In this document: positions 3,338 through 28,747 of the stretch, in pieces
Numbering within the stretch: the stretch's first letter is position 1
Layout of the letters: each line of letters begins with the position of its first letter
DNA from: an uncultured Lachnospiraceae bacterium
GTDB taxonomy: Bacteria > Bacillota > Clostridia > Lachnospirales > Lachnospiraceae
Assembly (NCBI GenBank): GCA_947652925.1
Contig: CANTEW010000024.1
Location: 1 to 37,007 of the forward strand
Direction: 5' to 3'
Length of the DNA: 37,007 nucleotides
Notes under the pieces: model-generated
What the model was told of the DNA's origin: nothing
Databases searched by the model: none
The model's input: only the letters and a program-made list of their open reading frames with translations
Made by a program: the position numbers and the translations under genes

Positions 3338-3444
3338 AGGGCTGTATAGAAATGCTATGATGGAGCAGCAGGTGCCGGTCTTACAGATATAGTGAAAAGT
3401 GTAAGGTCTTTACTGAGTGATCGGTGAGGGTCTTGCACTTTTTT
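3338..3444 (+). ncRNA. Candidate small RNA of about 107 nt (promoter-terminator pair)
   Basis: The segment lies between a near-consensus promoter and a strong intrinsic terminator and contains no supported ORF. It does not contain the motifs of a cobalamin riboswitch (no B12-box-like GCCACTG). A second promoter (3485-3513) restarts transcription before the next gene, so this looks like a separate transcription unit. The alternative is an attenuated leader of the cbi operon, with some read-through. Nothing in the sequence identifies a known RNA family. Confidence 0.4.
3395..3444 (+). terminator. Intrinsic terminator of the candidate small RNA
   Basis: An outer stem AAAAGTGTAAG / CTTGCACTTTT (one G-U pair) encloses an inner stem formed by 3408-3415 and 3422-3429, rich in G-U pairs. 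Six T residues (3439-3444) end the structure. The orientation fits plus-strand transcripts; the reverse direction has only a short T-run. Confidence 0.65.
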
Positions 3445-3484
3445 CGATAGCTGTTTTAGTCCTAAATTTGGGCATAACTCTACC

Positions 3485-3513
3485 TGGAAATTTCTTATAG
3501 TCCATGCTATACT
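3485..3513 (+). promoter_or_regulatory. Extended -10 promoter of the cbi operon
   Basis: TGGAAA (3485-3490), a 17-base spacer, and TATACT (3508-3513) preceded by TGC, which is an extended -10 motif. The predicted start near 3520 lies about 34 bases before the first gene of the operon. No riboswitch-like sequence lies between this promoter and the coding region. Confidence 0.55.
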
Positions 3514-17193: not shown

Positions 17194-19116
17194 TTATTTA
17201 ACATTTGGAAATAAAGAGGCGTCTGTATGAGGGAGAAAACAGCTCGCTATGAATTCATCCATATAAGTAGGTACGATGCTCAATTCCAGGTAAGTCATAT
17301 TTGCAGCCAGTCCGTAAGTTTTTCTTTCTGCTTCTGTGGACATCAGCATTGTGTAGGCCCCTGTCAGGGAAGAATTGCCGATATAATGGAATCTCTCGAT
17401 CTCAATGTCAGGGAACATCCCAATGCGTATGGCGTTTTTCATGTTGATTCCGCTCCCGATCCCTCCGGCCACATAGACCTGGTCGATCATAGACACATCA
17501 AAGTCAATAGAGTGCAGCATAGTGCGGACAGCAGAGAATATAGCACCTTTTGCACGGATAAAATCATCAATGTCCACCTCTGTGATCTGGATGTCTTTGT
17601 TCCCGGCGGCTTCTTCCCGGTATACGAGTATATAGCTGCCCATGCCATGTTCATCATGGAGGATGCGTTTCCCTTCACGGACAAACTTTCCTTTGGGATT
17701 GATGATCCTTGTACGGAACAGTTCACTGATGAGGTCGATGATGCCCGAACCGCATATCCCTACAGGTTTTTCATCCTGGCCGCCTACGATATGGAAGTGA
17801 GGTTCCATGGTATCGGCGTCGATCGTGCATGCTTCAATGGCACCGTCGGTCGCCCGCATCCCACAGCTTATATCGCCTCCCTCGAAAGCCGGTCCCGCTG
17901 AACATGCGCAGCACATCATAAAGTCATTGTTCCCAAATACAAGCTCCCCATTTGTCCCCAGGTCTATGAAAAGTGAAAACTCCGGCTTGTCCCATAAAAG
18001 GCTGACCAGTGTGCCTGCTGTGATATCCCCGCCCACGTAACTGCCCACATTGGGCGCAAATATGATATGGGCATCCGGATGGACATTGAGTCCCAGGTCA
18101 GACGCAAATATGGAATTGGATTTAAAGAAAGCCGGTATATATGGTTCCTGCCGGAGATAGTCTGCGTAGATCCCTGCAAAAAGGTGGTTCATCGTGGTGT
18201 TTGCCGCTACACATATCCTGTAGATATGTTCCGGGGAGATATCTGCATCCTGGCACATCTCCAGGATCAGCGGATTGAGTGTATCGTCGATGATGGCATC
18301 CTGGAGCTGTTTTTGACCGCCTTCTTTTGTGGATCCGATGATCCGGTTTATCACGTCTGCGCCAAATCGGATCTGGGCATTCCCTGTGGAGGCTTTGGAG
18401 AGGATCTTTCCGGATGTCATGTCGATCAGCAGCGCTGCTACGGAGGTGGTCCCGATGTCGATAGCCAGTCCTCCGATCACAGGATCTTCTTTTGCAGGCA
18501 GAACATCATACAGAAAGATATCATCGTCTGTCTTTCCGGCGACACATTGTACATGGAAGTTGCTGTTCCTTAAAGTGACGGGGAGTTTTTTGAGGACAGT
18601 GTAGGTCATGCGCACACGGGAGATACCTGTTGTGTGCTTGACGGCGCGTATCAGCCGTTCGTTGTCCGGCATGGTATCGTCGAGGCTGGGCGCGTCCATA
18701 GATATCTCCAGTAGTTCCATAGAGTTTTCCATAGGGATCCCTGCTGTTTTGATCTTTTCTTTGGCTTCTTCGAAGATTATGGTCTCCTTGGCAGAGCCCA
18801 GGTCGGCGATCTTCATCTTCTTTTTAAAAGCGGACGCCACATCGGGGACTTCTATCTCTACATCTTCTACGATGGTGTTCTCACATGCGAGACGCCATCC
18901 CTGCGCGTATTCTTCCTCGGTGATATGGAGGCTCTTTTTGGAGTGCAGCGTCCCTGCCCTTGACCGTACACGGCATTTGCCGCAGGATCCGTTTCCAGAA
19001 CAGGGGGCGTCGATCACTACATTGGCGCTACGGGCTGTTTCCAGCAGGTTGCTCCCTTTTACGGCTGAGACTGTGGTCGTATGGCCGTCTTCAAAATGAA
19101 ATACTACATCAGGCAT
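17194..19116 (-). CDS. RACo/RamA-type corrinoid-protein reductive activator (2Fe-2S + ASKHA, DUF4445)
   Basis: ATP-dependent reactivase that reduces an oxidised Co(II) corrinoid protein back to Co(I), as known for RACo and related O-demethylase activators. The 640-aa protein has an N-terminal plant-type 2Fe-2S domain with Cys39, Cys45, Cys48 and Cys78 (PCSGNGSCGKC then RLAC). A linker (about residues 95-200) follows, then an ASKHA ATPase core starting at GGLAIDIGTTSVAALLID. LFIDLGTNGELVFGN, CSAGPAFEGGDI and VGICGSGIIDLI are its further phosphate and adenosine motifs. No corrinoid protein or methyltransferase gene lies in this window, so its target is encoded elsewhere. It has its own promoter and a LysR-type site upstream. 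Confidence 0.92.
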   Translation of the reverse strand: MPDVVFHFEDGHTTTVSAVKGSNLLETARSANVVIDAPCSGNGSCGKCRVRSRAGTLHSKKSLHITEEEYAQGWRLACENTIVEDVEIEVPDVASAFKKKMKIADLGSAKETIIFEEAKEKIKTAGIPMENSMELLEISMDAPSLDDTMPDNERLIRAVKHTTGISRVRMTYTVLKKLPVTLRNSNFHVQCVAGKTDDDIFLYDVLPAKEDPVIGGLAIDIGTTSVAALLIDMTSGKILSKASTGNAQIRFGADVINRIIGSTKEGGQKQLQDAIIDDTLNPLILEMCQDADISPEHIYRICVAANTTMNHLFAGIYADYLRQEPYIPAFFKSNSIFASDLGLNVHPDAHIIFAPNVGSYVGGDITAGTLVSLLWDKPEFSLFIDLGTNGELVFGNNDFMMCCACSAGPAFEGGDISCGMRATDGAIEACTIDADTMEPHFHIVGGQDEKPVGICGSGIIDLISELFRTRIINPKGKFVREGKRILHDEHGMGSYILVYREEAAGNKDIQITEVDIDDFIRAKGAIFSAVRTMLHSIDFDVSMIDQVYVAGGIGSGINMKNAIRIGMFPDIEIERFHYIGNSSLTGAYTMLMSTEAERKTYGLAANMTYLELSIVPTYMDEFIASCFLPHTDASLFPNVK

Positions 19117-19166
19117 ATTTTATCTCTCCCTTATTTTTATGGATAGTGGTGTTTTTCGATGTTTTT

Positions 19167-19195
19167 ATTATATCCTTTGTCTTATTTTTCGTAAA
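19167..19195 (-). promoter_or_regulatory. Promoter of the RACo-VOC operon
   Basis: On the minus strand: TTTACG (plus 19190-19195), a 17-base spacer, TATAAT (plus 19167-19172). Transcription would start near 19160, about 44 bases before the RACo ATG. Confidence 0.65.
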
Positions 19196-19216
19196 ACAGA
19201 GAATTGTTGTAGGATA

Positions 19217-19231
19217 ACAACTTTAAGTTGT
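19217..19231. promoter_or_regulatory. LysR-type operator in the divergent RACo/LysR promoter region
   Basis: A perfect 7-bp inverted repeat with a one-base centre (ACAACTT T AAGTTGT), with the T...A ends expected of LysR-type sites. Its centre is about 64 bases upstream of the predicted RACo start, the classical position of the LysR recognition site. It also abuts the TGC-TATACT extended -10 of the LysR gene (19231-19239), which would fit autorepression. The regulator is presumably the adjacent LysR protein. Confidence 0.6.
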
Positions 19232-19239
19232 GCTATACT
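19231..19239 (+). promoter_or_regulatory. Extended -10 promoter of the LysR gene (upstream of the intron)
   Basis: TGC followed by TATACT at 19234-19239; there is no good -35, but the extended TGN motif compensates. Transcription would begin near 19246 and run through a 10-G run (19251-19260) straight into the group II intron. The same TGCTATACT motif is used by the cbi operon promoter at 3505-3513. Confidence 0.5.
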
Positions 19240-19756
19240 GTATTTAGAATGGGGGGGGGGTGCGCCAGTTCGGCGCTAGATATATAACTGGTGGGAATCC
19301 AGTCTGGTAAGGCCTAGCAAGCCGCCAGTGCCGAGTCCTTGGAGCGCCAAAGGCTAACAATGGTGCTTAAGCGTAGGACAGGGAACAGGAACGCCGTAAT
19401 GCGAAAGCGTGAAGTGATTGAGCTCCGTTAGAAAATCGATTGTGTGGGGTGGTCTGCTACCTCCTTGGGTCACCAACAAGGAATAGTCGTTAAAGCGAGA
19501 CTATGAAAACACACCGGAGTCCTAGAGCACGGCATACCTGATATTGTTATATCCAGCGTACCTGGGAGACCTGGACGGTTCTGTACACGAGACAGTAGGG
19601 ACTATCGGCCAAGGCAATGGCGAGTAGGAACGAAGACCGTCGAGGAGTCGGATTCGCCAATAGTACCGATGAAGGAAGTAATGACTCTGGAGGGAAGGGC
19701 GGACAATAAGTTGCTTCTGCTGACAAAACATGGAAAGCACAGGAGGCAGTCATTCT

Positions 19757-20659
19757 ATGGAAAGAGAGAAAGCAGAAATAGCCAGTCTCGTAGAGAAATA
19801 TGGCAGAGTCCAGTCGTTGATGAAATACGTCAACAGCGACACGCTCAAGGAGTCCTACCGCAGACAGCCGAAAGGAAAAGCGGTTGGAACAGACGGGGTG
19901 ACAAAGGAAGAATACGGAGAAAAGCTAGAGGAAAATATAGAAGACCTGATAGCCAGGATGAAGAAGTTTTCCTATAAGCCATATCCGGTACGCAGAGCCT
20001 ATATACCAAAAGGGAATGGGAAAATGCGCGGACTGGGCATCCCGTCATTTGAGGACATAGTGGTACAGGGCGTCTTCAAGGAGATACTGGAAGCGATTTA
20101 TGAGCCGAAGTTCAAAGAGTTCTCTTTTGGGTTCTGGCCAGGAAGAAGCTGCCACGATGCAATCCAGAGGGTAAACAAACATATCATGGCGGATAAAGTC
20201 AATTATATCTTAGATGCTGATATCAAAGGCTTCTTTGAAAGCAGAATCCTACCCTTTGGCAGATACAAAGGGACAAAAGAGTCTTTCGACTTTCTGGGGT
20301 TCACACACTATAACGCAACAAGCCACTGGGGAAAATACTGTGTGCTGCATAGGACAAGCAAAAAGAAGCTGAAGACGAAACGTGAAGCCGTAAAGAAATG
20401 GATATGGGAGCATATGCACGAGAGCATAGCTGATACGATTGAAGCGTTGAATGTGAAACTGACAGGACATTACAGATACTATGGAATCTATGGAAACTAT
20501 GTGGGCCTGCAAAAGTATTATAAGTATGTCCGGGAAGAATTATGGAAAAGCAAGAGACGCAGAGACCAGACCTATTGGCTGACATGGAGGAAATATAGGA
20601 ATATCTTAAAGATACACCCATTGGAGTATCCGAGGATATATCTGAAAAGTGCTTATTAG
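19757..20659 (+). CDS. Group II intron-encoded protein, reverse transcriptase core deleted, maturase part kept
   Basis: A 300-aa reading frame with AGGAGG 10 bases before the ATG. Residues 1-160 match the N-terminal RT blocks: GTDGVTKEEY, RRAYIPKGNGKMRGLGIPSFEDIVVQ, FGFWPGRSCHDAI and YILDADIKGFFE. Then the frame jumps directly to SRILPFGRYKG...TFDFLGFTHY-type sequence (residue 161 on), which normally follows the YADD block. About 120-130 residues, including PQGG and YADD, are therefore missing without a frameshift. The maturase/thumb region and the C-terminal WRKYRNILKIHPLEYPRI stretch are intact. No HNH endonuclease domain is present. Polymerase activity must be lost; splicing help may remain. 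A normal member has about 420 or more residues. Confidence 0.88.
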   Translation: MEREKAEIASLVEKYGRVQSLMKYVNSDTLKESYRRQPKGKAVGTDGVTKEEYGEKLEENIEDLIARMKKFSYKPYPVRRAYIPKGNGKMRGLGIPSFEDIVVQGVFKEILEAIYEPKFKEFSFGFWPGRSCHDAIQRVNKHIMADKVNYILDADIKGFFESRILPFGRYKGTKESFDFLGFTHYNATSHWGKYCVLHRTSKKKLKTKREAVKKWIWEHMHESIADTIEALNVKLTGHYRYYGIYGNYVGLQKYYKYVREELWKSKRRRDQTYWLTWRKYRNILKIHPLEYPRIYLKSAY

Positions 20660-20676
20660 GCGAATGGCTTATTGAA

Positions 20677-20709
20677 GAGCCGTATGCCTTAATAGGGCAC
20701 GTGCGGTTC
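20677..20709 (+). ncRNA. Group II intron domain V (catalytic hairpin)
   Basis: The 33-base hairpin starts GAGCCG and ends CGGTTC, with the catalytic AGC in the 5' arm and a short loop in the middle. It is the best conserved part of group II introns and looks undamaged, which suggests the ribozyme can still splice. Confidence 0.85.
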
Positions 20710-20804
20710 TGTGAGGGGCTTTTGAGACTTGAACCTCTCATCGCAAAAAGAAAAAAGATGAAAGGAAGTGAAAAGTCGAGACAAAGTCTACTCGACGTTC
20801 CAAT

Positions 20805-21689
20805 ATGGATCTTAAACTGTTGGATCATTTTATCACAGTATACCAGACGGGGAGTATCACAGCGGCGGCCAGAGAATTGGATATTTCTCAGCAGGGGTTA
20901 TCAAAGTCGATACAGAATCTGGAACGTGAGCTTGATCTTCCGTTGTTTTTAAGAGAAAAAAATCGTCTGCAGCCGACTTCTTTTGGGAATCTCTTTTATA
21001 CACAAGCGCTCCATCTGACAGGAGAATTCCAGAAGATGCTGGATATGATGGAGGACGCGAGAAAAGGGGCTGCTACTCTGAAGATCGGATTTGCCACCAA
21101 TATCTTTAGCGCGCTCAATGAGATAGAGACAGCCATATGGCGTTTTAGAAAACTGAATCCGGGGATCTTAGTCGAGATATCCAATGAGACGGATCTCGTC
21201 TGTGAAGAAGAGGTGGAAAAAGGAGGATTGGACGTTGCTTTTGGTATGGGATCTTTTTTCTCACCGGATATACGATCCCATTATCTGGCGGAGGAATCCA
21301 TATATGCTCTTGTTCCCGACACACATCCGCTGGCTTCGAGGGAGCTGTTGTATATATCAGATATATGTGAGGAACCCTTGATCACTTCTGACAAGAAAAA
21401 TAAAGGTTATTTCTATCTGAAAGAAGATTTTCAGAAAAAAGGGCTGCTGCCCCGTATCGCGTTCTGGTCAGACGATCCGCAGACACATTTTAGGCTCGTG
21501 CAGAAAAGAATGGGGATCTCACTTTTTCCAGAACATTGGATCTCGCTCTTGAGTAATGTCAGCGATCTAAAAGTGATCCCGCTCGCAGATATCTCGAAAC
21601 GGAAGATCTATGTCATTTATAAGAAACAGGGCAGAGTGCCCCCTGCGTTGAAGGATTTTTTGAGATTTATTTTAGGTCCTGCTATTTAG
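20805..21689 (+). CDS. LysR-family transcriptional regulator
   Basis: A 294-aa regulator of normal LysR length. The winged helix-turn-helix is at residues 1-65 (LLDHFITVYQTGSITAAARELDISQQGLSKSIQNLE, then FLREKNRLQPT). The rest is a periplasmic-binding-like effector domain. It is divergent from the RACo-VOC operon, which is its likely target; the effector is unknown but may be a methylated substrate or other signal for corrinoid-dependent metabolism. The ATG at 20805 has no ribosome site in the intron sequence just before it; the G-run before the intron would be placed 9 bases from the ATG after splicing. The stop TAG (21687-21689) uses the TA target and the first G of the MITE that follows. 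Confidence 0.9.
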   Translation: MDLKLLDHFITVYQTGSITAAARELDISQQGLSKSIQNLERELDLPLFLREKNRLQPTSFGNLFYTQALHLTGEFQKMLDMMEDARKGAATLKIGFATNIFSALNEIETAIWRFRKLNPGILVEISNETDLVCEEEVEKGGLDVAFGMGSFFSPDIRSHYLAEESIYALVPDTHPLASRELLYISDICEEPLITSDKKNKGYFYLKEDFQKKGLLPRIAFWSDDPQTHFRLVQKRMGISLFPEHWISLLSNVSDLKVIPLADISKRKIYVIYKKQGRVPPALKDFLRFILGPAI

Positions 21690-28441: not shown

Positions 28442-28582
28442 GGCCGAAGTGTATTATCTCCACAGAAATAAGACATCAATACCAGATCATATCAGCGAAA
28501 AACGATGATACTGGATATCTGACGGTACAGTATTCTAGGCACTTCAGGCTATCGTTCGCGTAACCTTATGTGTGTGTTATAT

Positions 28583-28732
28583 GTGGCAGGTCTTCTGACT
28601 TGGGTATATGGCAGATCTGCCAGTCTTTGCCCGCCTTCCCGGTTTCCCAGTGGCATCTTTGGACAAAGATTCTTCCCTTACAGCGGCGCGACCGTGCAAG
28701 ATTCACACTTGCTTCCCTATAAAGACCACATA
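28583..28732 (-). promoter_or_regulatory. Cobalamin riboswitch aptamer controlling cbiMNQOK
   Basis: On the minus strand the conserved order is present: AGGGAAGC, GTGTGAATCTTGCACGGTCG, CGCCGCTGTAAG, then GCCACTGGG (the B12 box), CCGGGAAGGCGGG and AGTCAGAAGACCTGCC at the 3' end. Cobalamin binding should favour the downstream terminator and shut off cobalt uptake and CbiK. The aptamer ends about 230 bases before cbiM. Edges are approximate. Confidence 0.95.
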
Positions 28733-28747
28733 TATAGTGTCTACTTG

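Follow-up and report, generated by a model that had tools for sequence, protein, structure and literature searches.

The lysR gene studied here carries a group II intron between the position of its Shine-Dalgarno (SD) sequence and its start codon, which raises the question of whether translation of LysR depends on splicing, and of why an intron should lie at such a place. We analyzed the window, i.e., the whole 37,007-nucleotide stretch of DNA from an uncultured Lachnospiraceae bacterium, in which the locus comprises the following features.

17194..19116, minus strand: divergent gene for a RACo-type corrinoid-protein activator with Fer2 and RACo domains (Pfam PF14574, PF17651, PF17650, PF00111)
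19217..19231, no strand: palindrome ACAACTTTAAGTTGT between the divergent lysR and RACo genes, probable LysR operator
19231..19239, plus strand: extended -10 of lysR, TGC-TATACT; GTGCTATACTG is identical in the ortholog of genome G001
19251..19259, plus strand: end of the 5' exon, a G-run at the SD position, whose last 6 nt (19254-19259) are IBS1; GGAGGT stands here in G001
19260..20796, plus strand: group II intron of 1537 nt (Rfam RF02005 and RF00029; boundaries from homologs)
20797..20804, plus strand: 3' exon spacer GTTCCAAT, whose first G is a candidate IBS3
20805..21689, plus strand: lysR, intact, 294 aa (PF00126, PF03466)

The presence of a group II intron between the SD position and the ATG, first proposed in a preliminary description of this DNA, was confirmed by the Rfam matches and by the boundaries of homologous copies. 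The first bases of the window intron, from 19260 on, are GTGCGCC, and its last bases are CTACTCGAC, the final one being 20796; GTGCG at 19260 and AC at 20795-20796 fit the GUGYG/AY signature of group II introns. Both boundaries were reproduced, from position 1 through the last base, by three homologous copies, and further copies reproduced one boundary each. Domains D1-D4 matched RF02005 with 102 bits (E 5.9e-28) and D5-D6 matched RF00029 with 42.6 bits, for a cut-off of 40. Five near-complete copies of the same lineage scored 96.7-98.6 and 41.2-42.6 bits, respectively, and L087, a deletion copy, scored 53.8 and 42.6 bits. As the window scores are on par with those of the near-complete copies, its ribozyme looks intact, as the catalytic domain V did in the preliminary description. 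The 3' part of the intron is organized as follows.

20677..20709, plus strand: domain V (RF00029 alignment)
20711..20796, plus strand: domain VI with a distal extension of ~50 nt (folds)

The domain V sequence is identical in most of the copies compared, with one loop base changed in L071. Domain VI folds with a bulged A, the candidate branch point, at 20790 inside CUACUC, but it is absent from a longer fold of 20640-20825. A 3' extension of the B. cereus domain VII type, as presented in PMC3261151, was not preferred as a reading, since the fold of D6 alone is canonical and places the additional bases distally.

Upstream of the intron, the lysR -10 hexamer TATACT (19234-19239) is preceded by TGC, and the -35 is poor, with 3/6 matches. 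The extended -10, the G-run and the ATG at 20805, 8 nt past the intron end, were all found where the preliminary description had placed them. The 15-bp palindrome at 19217-19231 is identical in G001 and reads ACAACTAAAAGTTGT in G003, with two centre bases changed. We calculated the anti-SD duplex over the 25 nt before the ATG with the common bacterial 16S tail, which presumably holds for this host. Pairing reached -14.8 kcal/mol for the joined exons and -1.1 kcal/mol for the unspliced RNA, which supports the earlier proposal that exon joining brings the G-run within anti-SD pairing distance. No host 16S end was recovered from the assembly, whose sole near match had no Rfam hit. A second promoter just upstream of the ATG was rejected, as promoter-like sites were no more frequent than by chance (2 on the two strands together vs 2.7 expected, with one weak plus-strand site at 20579-20607). 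Rfam searches identified no riboswitch adjoining the intron, and neither a c-di-GMP aptamer nor a group I intron in the window at the gathering score. A cobalamin riboswitch (91 bits) is present at 28568-28745 on the minus strand, on the contig that also carries the corrinoid activator gene.

Comparison with intron-free relatives showed the SD and the start codon joined exactly at the insertion point, which supports the anatomy given in the preliminary description. Within the genus, lysR has its best ortholog in G001 (60% identity, one TAA in frame); this ortholog is devoid of intron and reads ACAACTTTAAGTTGTGCTATACTGCTTTATTATGGAGGT, then GACTGATT, then TTG, the insertion join falling after GGAGGT and 8 nt before the TTG. 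Its window counterpart reads ACAACTTTAAGTTGTGCTATACTGTATTTAGAATGGGGGGGGG, the intron, GTTCCAAT and ATG, with nine Gs at the junction where G001 has GGAGGT. As the operator, the -10 and the spacer length are the same in both, the intron lies directly behind the SD position. In G003, a more distant lysR ortholog (54%) has GGGAGG, 8 nt and TTG. A second empty site, L171, reads GAGGT^GGATACA-ATG; it belongs to the same assembly as the intron copy L066 and is 96.5% alike to it over the first 400 nt. A search for related loci seeded with LysR found none. By eye, the G003 lysR leader (L006) contains a repeat-like insert between promoter and SD that resembles sequence on contig C28 of the window's genome, G000 (L002); an RT fragment, L002, is located at G000:C28:34797-35075 in the same genome.

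The guide loop of the intron matches this position.

19459..19464, plus strand: EBS1, ACCUCC, in the apical D1 loop (Rfam alignment; matched change with IBS1 in L085)

The apical loop reads UACCUCCU (19458-19465 in the Rfam alignment), and the context of EBS1, ACCUCCUU, is what we take to be the 16S anti-SD sequence. The pairing energy of ACCUCC is -8.7 kcal/mol for GGAGGU and -7.7 kcal/mol for the window's GGGGGG, EBS1-IBS1 pairing in the window including a mismatch at -1 and one G-U wobble. By eye, L085 displays a matched change (EBS1 ACTCCT, IBS1 GGGAGT), the ATCTCC loop of L075 pairs with its GGAGGT exon via G-U, and EBS1/IBS1 pairing is poor in L067 and in the decayed L073.

Scanning the GTDB collection for the exact pattern of the intron 5' end yielded 25 contigs, which with the window make 26 distinct sites in 18 genomes; L035-L039, L044 and L047, which repeat copies among L064-L088, were counted once. 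The hosts, Lachnospiraceae-like Clostridia, include Blautia, Eisenbergiella, Fusicatenibacter, Hespellia and Robinsoniella. At 25/26 sites the 5' exon forms an anti-SD duplex at or below -6 kcal/mol, as do 7.4% of 2000 positions drawn at random. The 5' exon of L082, a copy that belongs to a more distant branch, is without SD, and this copy was left out of the position table (25 sites), in which the consensus of the last six exon bases is GGAGGT. G occupies positions -5, -3 and -2 in 24/25 sites, A is found at -4 in 21 and T at -1 in 21, and positions -12 to -7 hold at most 0.20 bits. The distinct 3' exons number 21, leaving aside L064, whose contig stops one base past the intron, and one G205 3' end without a locus. 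Each of the 21 has G as its first base and a start codon (20 ATG, 1 GTG) at offset 5-8, which opens an ORF of at least 40 codons in 17 and a shorter one in 4. Ten proteins encoded by these 21 ORFs were scanned and all had Pfam matches, namely, flavodoxin, HTH, radical-SAM/4Fe-4S, HxlR, AAA, two response regulators, HicA, HAD hydrolase and AbiH. As unrelated genes carry the same intron, a regulator-specific switch was rejected as the main reading. The position of the intron looks like the target choice of a mobile element, not an evolved LysR switch, since the downstream genes are not only regulators. Phages gave no match for the intron lineage; viral contigs gave a single one, which has the same flank as L072 and was excluded from the counts, and further viral searches found none.

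The insertion sites also appear to lie close to promoters. A TANNNT hexamer with at least 5/6 matches to TATAAT starts at -27..-16 in 23/26 sites, compared with 20/207 control SD sites (Fisher 5e-17) or, with AT-rich controls only, 19/109 (P 1.3e-11); these P values are only indicative, since the bin was picked after inspection of the sites, with its far edge set by the window site, and the copies share ancestry. The controls were SDs before ORFs of at least 80 codons, taken from 768 kb of control sequence; of 5000 random positions, 224 had such a hexamer. Counts in the neighbouring bins were 5/26 vs 26/207 controls (-39..-28) and 2/26 vs 24/207 (-51..-40), indicating that a promoter is closely placed, not just present. 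Counted per genome, the first site was positive in 16/18 and every site in 15/18. The distance from the end of the -10 to the insertion varies from 11 to 20 nt, a floating distance that is more in line with a promoter than with a protein contact at a set place. From the exon, guide and -10 comparisons at the 26 sites, the intron lineage appears to target promoter-proximal SDs.

Related introns have other guides and targets. Among 30 RF02005 loci, 7, including the window, had the start motif and were read. In 4 of the 6 others (L173, L177, L181, L184) the exon end has no SD likeness, and it is GA-rich in L183 and L190; L173, L181 and L190 have different loops, each pairing with its own exon by eye. 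Five introns of Bacillaceae plasmids (L159-L163) match the window intron partially at the DNA level (8-34% of the query, 66-72% identity) and have the EBS1 loop at the same place. By eye, four of them combine IBS1 GCAGGT with EBS1 ACCUGC, and three are located downstream of a hairpin and T-run. With these different loops and targets in both groups of relatives, the anti-SD guide appears to be derived in this lineage.

We propose, with a probability of about 0.72, that EBS1 copies the anti-SD, that the lineage inserts behind promoter-proximal SDs, and that exact splicing restores the SD-ATG arrangement and hence translation. Because it has the same sequence as the 16S anti-SD, the ACCUCC loop would direct the intron RNP to SD sequences. 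Insertion would take place immediately behind the SD, 5-8 nt ahead of the start codon and mostly with a -10-like box just upstream, where the open promoter may offer single-stranded DNA to an RNP without endonuclease. In the precursor RNA, the SD could pair with EBS1 and would be separated from the ATG by ~1.5-1.9 kb, and exact splicing would place it next to the ATG again. We infer that splicing occurs and that host translation depends on it; that lysR translation needs splicing is thus well motivated by the sequences but not proven. In the earlier proposal that splicing enables LysR translation, the logic of rejoining SD and ATG is supported by the empty sites and by the lineage, whereas its specificity for a regulator is not, as unrelated genes carry the intron.

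Mobile bacterial group II introns without an endonuclease domain are exemplified by RmInt1 and class C introns. The present lineage shares with them the ribozyme domains, EBS/IBS recognition and an RT/maturase without endonuclease domain, RVT_1 being the only Pfam match of the 421-aa intron-encoded protein (IEP) of L088. It differs in its target, a promoter-proximal SD, as homing sites, terminators and attC are the three target specificities named in a 2015 review (PMC4424553). Unlike terminator-targeting class C introns, the window intron is not behind an intrinsic terminator, with no plus-strand terminator-like site in 19000-20900. Among the open full-text matches listed, judged by titles and abstract openings and with subscription papers mostly outside this set, none described SD-targeting group II introns. 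The passages of PMC8919778 examined contain no word beginning with 'shine', and those of PMC2882425 refer to a Shine-Dalgarno sequence only for a cloning construct.

The window copy itself might be dead, i.e., lack a working maturase and not splice, leaving lysR silenced or poorly expressed.

19757..20659, plus strand: shortened IEP of 300 aa, lacking 121 codons including YADD (alignment to 421-aa copies)

The deletion removes the RT core in frame, so that the window copy has no complete RT/maturase ORF and is probably immobile; the IEP remainder scores 198 bits against TIGR04416, under the 300-bit cut-off. Full-length IEPs of 421 aa are encoded by L064, L066, L071 and L088, and that of L085 stops after 12 codons; the best PDB relatives of the IEP had similar scores, which did not single out a class for it. 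The window's genome has a single intron copy, and no intact RT was found elsewhere in its assembly, the only other RVT_1 match being a fragment with a 108-aa open frame, and the window G-run departs from GGAGGT. Against a dead copy, the ribozyme scores equal those of near-complete copies, lysR is intact, and the IEP remainder is open, with a dN of 0.03-0.05 for a dS of 0.5-1.1 (comparisons made without L085 and L075), although such a low ratio may merely reflect a recent deletion. An RT/maturase ORF is optional for group II introns, and ORF-less introns exist. Splicing of the window copy may rely on what is left of its maturase or on trans-acting help, or it may be weak or absent, and we regard its being dead as rather doubtful. 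A regulated on/off splicing switch for LysR is most improbable. Its model would be the C. difficile c-di-GMP riboswitch/group I intron, in which, according to PMC3984707, splicing brings a ribosome site in front of the start codon. This parallel, already drawn in the preliminary description, is sound as regards the position between SD and start codon and the outcome, predicted in our case, of splicing. However, the C. difficile element is a group I intron with an aptamer upstream, whereas the window has a group II intron with no aptamer found beside it, whose place probably reflects the target choice of a mobile element. The same intron precedes unrelated genes, and the 5' exon leader would be only ~14 nt long if transcription starts 7 nt past the -10.

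Translation of the unspliced RNA is a real rival, in view of a conserved SD-like stretch, an alternative hairpin fold and an intron remnant.

20760..20771, plus strand: SD-like stretch GAAAGGAAGTGA, 11/12 to the SD consensus
20775..20796, plus strand: alternative hairpin GUCGAG/CUCGAC, between the SD-like stretch and the ATG

The earlier statement that the last 40 bases of the intron contain no SD near the ATG needs a correction, as the SD-like GAAAGGAAGTGA lies among them, 33 nt ahead of the ATG of lysR, which is the first ATG downstream. This stretch could serve as a replacement site that recruits ribosomes, the hairpin shortening the gap to the ATG, and splicing would then not be required. 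It is exact in 16/21 3' ends and one base off in 5, namely, L085 and 4 ends that come from a single genome, and its anti-SD duplex amounts to -14.9 kcal/mol in 7/8 copies and -13.6 in L085; 3/60 shuffles also contained a comparable 12-mer, which tempers the argument. The ~50-nt D6 extension that holds it is absent from the related introns read, which have a shorter D6, but it may be a mere elaboration of D6. A CCUCUC segment in the extension (20711-20796) can pair with the SD-like stretch. Folded alone, D6 reached -20.7 kcal/mol with the SD-like stretch partly paired, and the alternative fold, with the stretch free and the hairpin present, was 3.5 kcal/mol worse at -17.2. Folding of the 3' end by itself gives the hairpin, as does folding of 20640-20825, for which the lowest-energy fold has the hairpin and no D6, whereas for 20670-20830 it has D6. 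Even so, the effective spacing between the SD-like stretch and the ATG is still long. In L085, unspliced pairing (-9.2 kcal/mol) nearly equals spliced pairing (-10.8). L076 retains a 123-nt intron remnant (3380-3502) between the SD and the ATG of an intact 184-aa HTH ORF; it is without domain V and thus not splicing, and it kept precisely the SD-like part. On balance, we find it unlikely that the replacement site makes splicing dispensable, and we favor restoration of the SD by splicing.

SD targeting of this kind would provide a further RNA-guided target type, based on a very common bacterial mRNA signal. It would account for an intron that has very many sites open to it in each genome yet stays removable, and it would give rise to genes in which translation is tied to splicing. 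From the association with the -10 comes a testable proposal, namely, that an endonuclease-less intron uses open promoters as single-stranded DNA. In its full form, with the anti-SD adopted as a guide to a near-universal target, entry through the single-stranded DNA of the transcription bubble, where the SD would be among the first bases transcribed, and splicing gating the translation of invaded genes, the idea is tentative and we doubt it more than we trust it; if it is true, group II introns have a fourth target specificity. Among 397 genomes, a second, related lineage is represented by 4 copies (L208, L209, L215 and L216, in G298 and G118); RF02005 had no match in G298. By eye, the 5' side of all 4 copies has a -10-like box followed by AAGGA or GAGG, and this second lineage seems to have arrived at that target too, in a different register.
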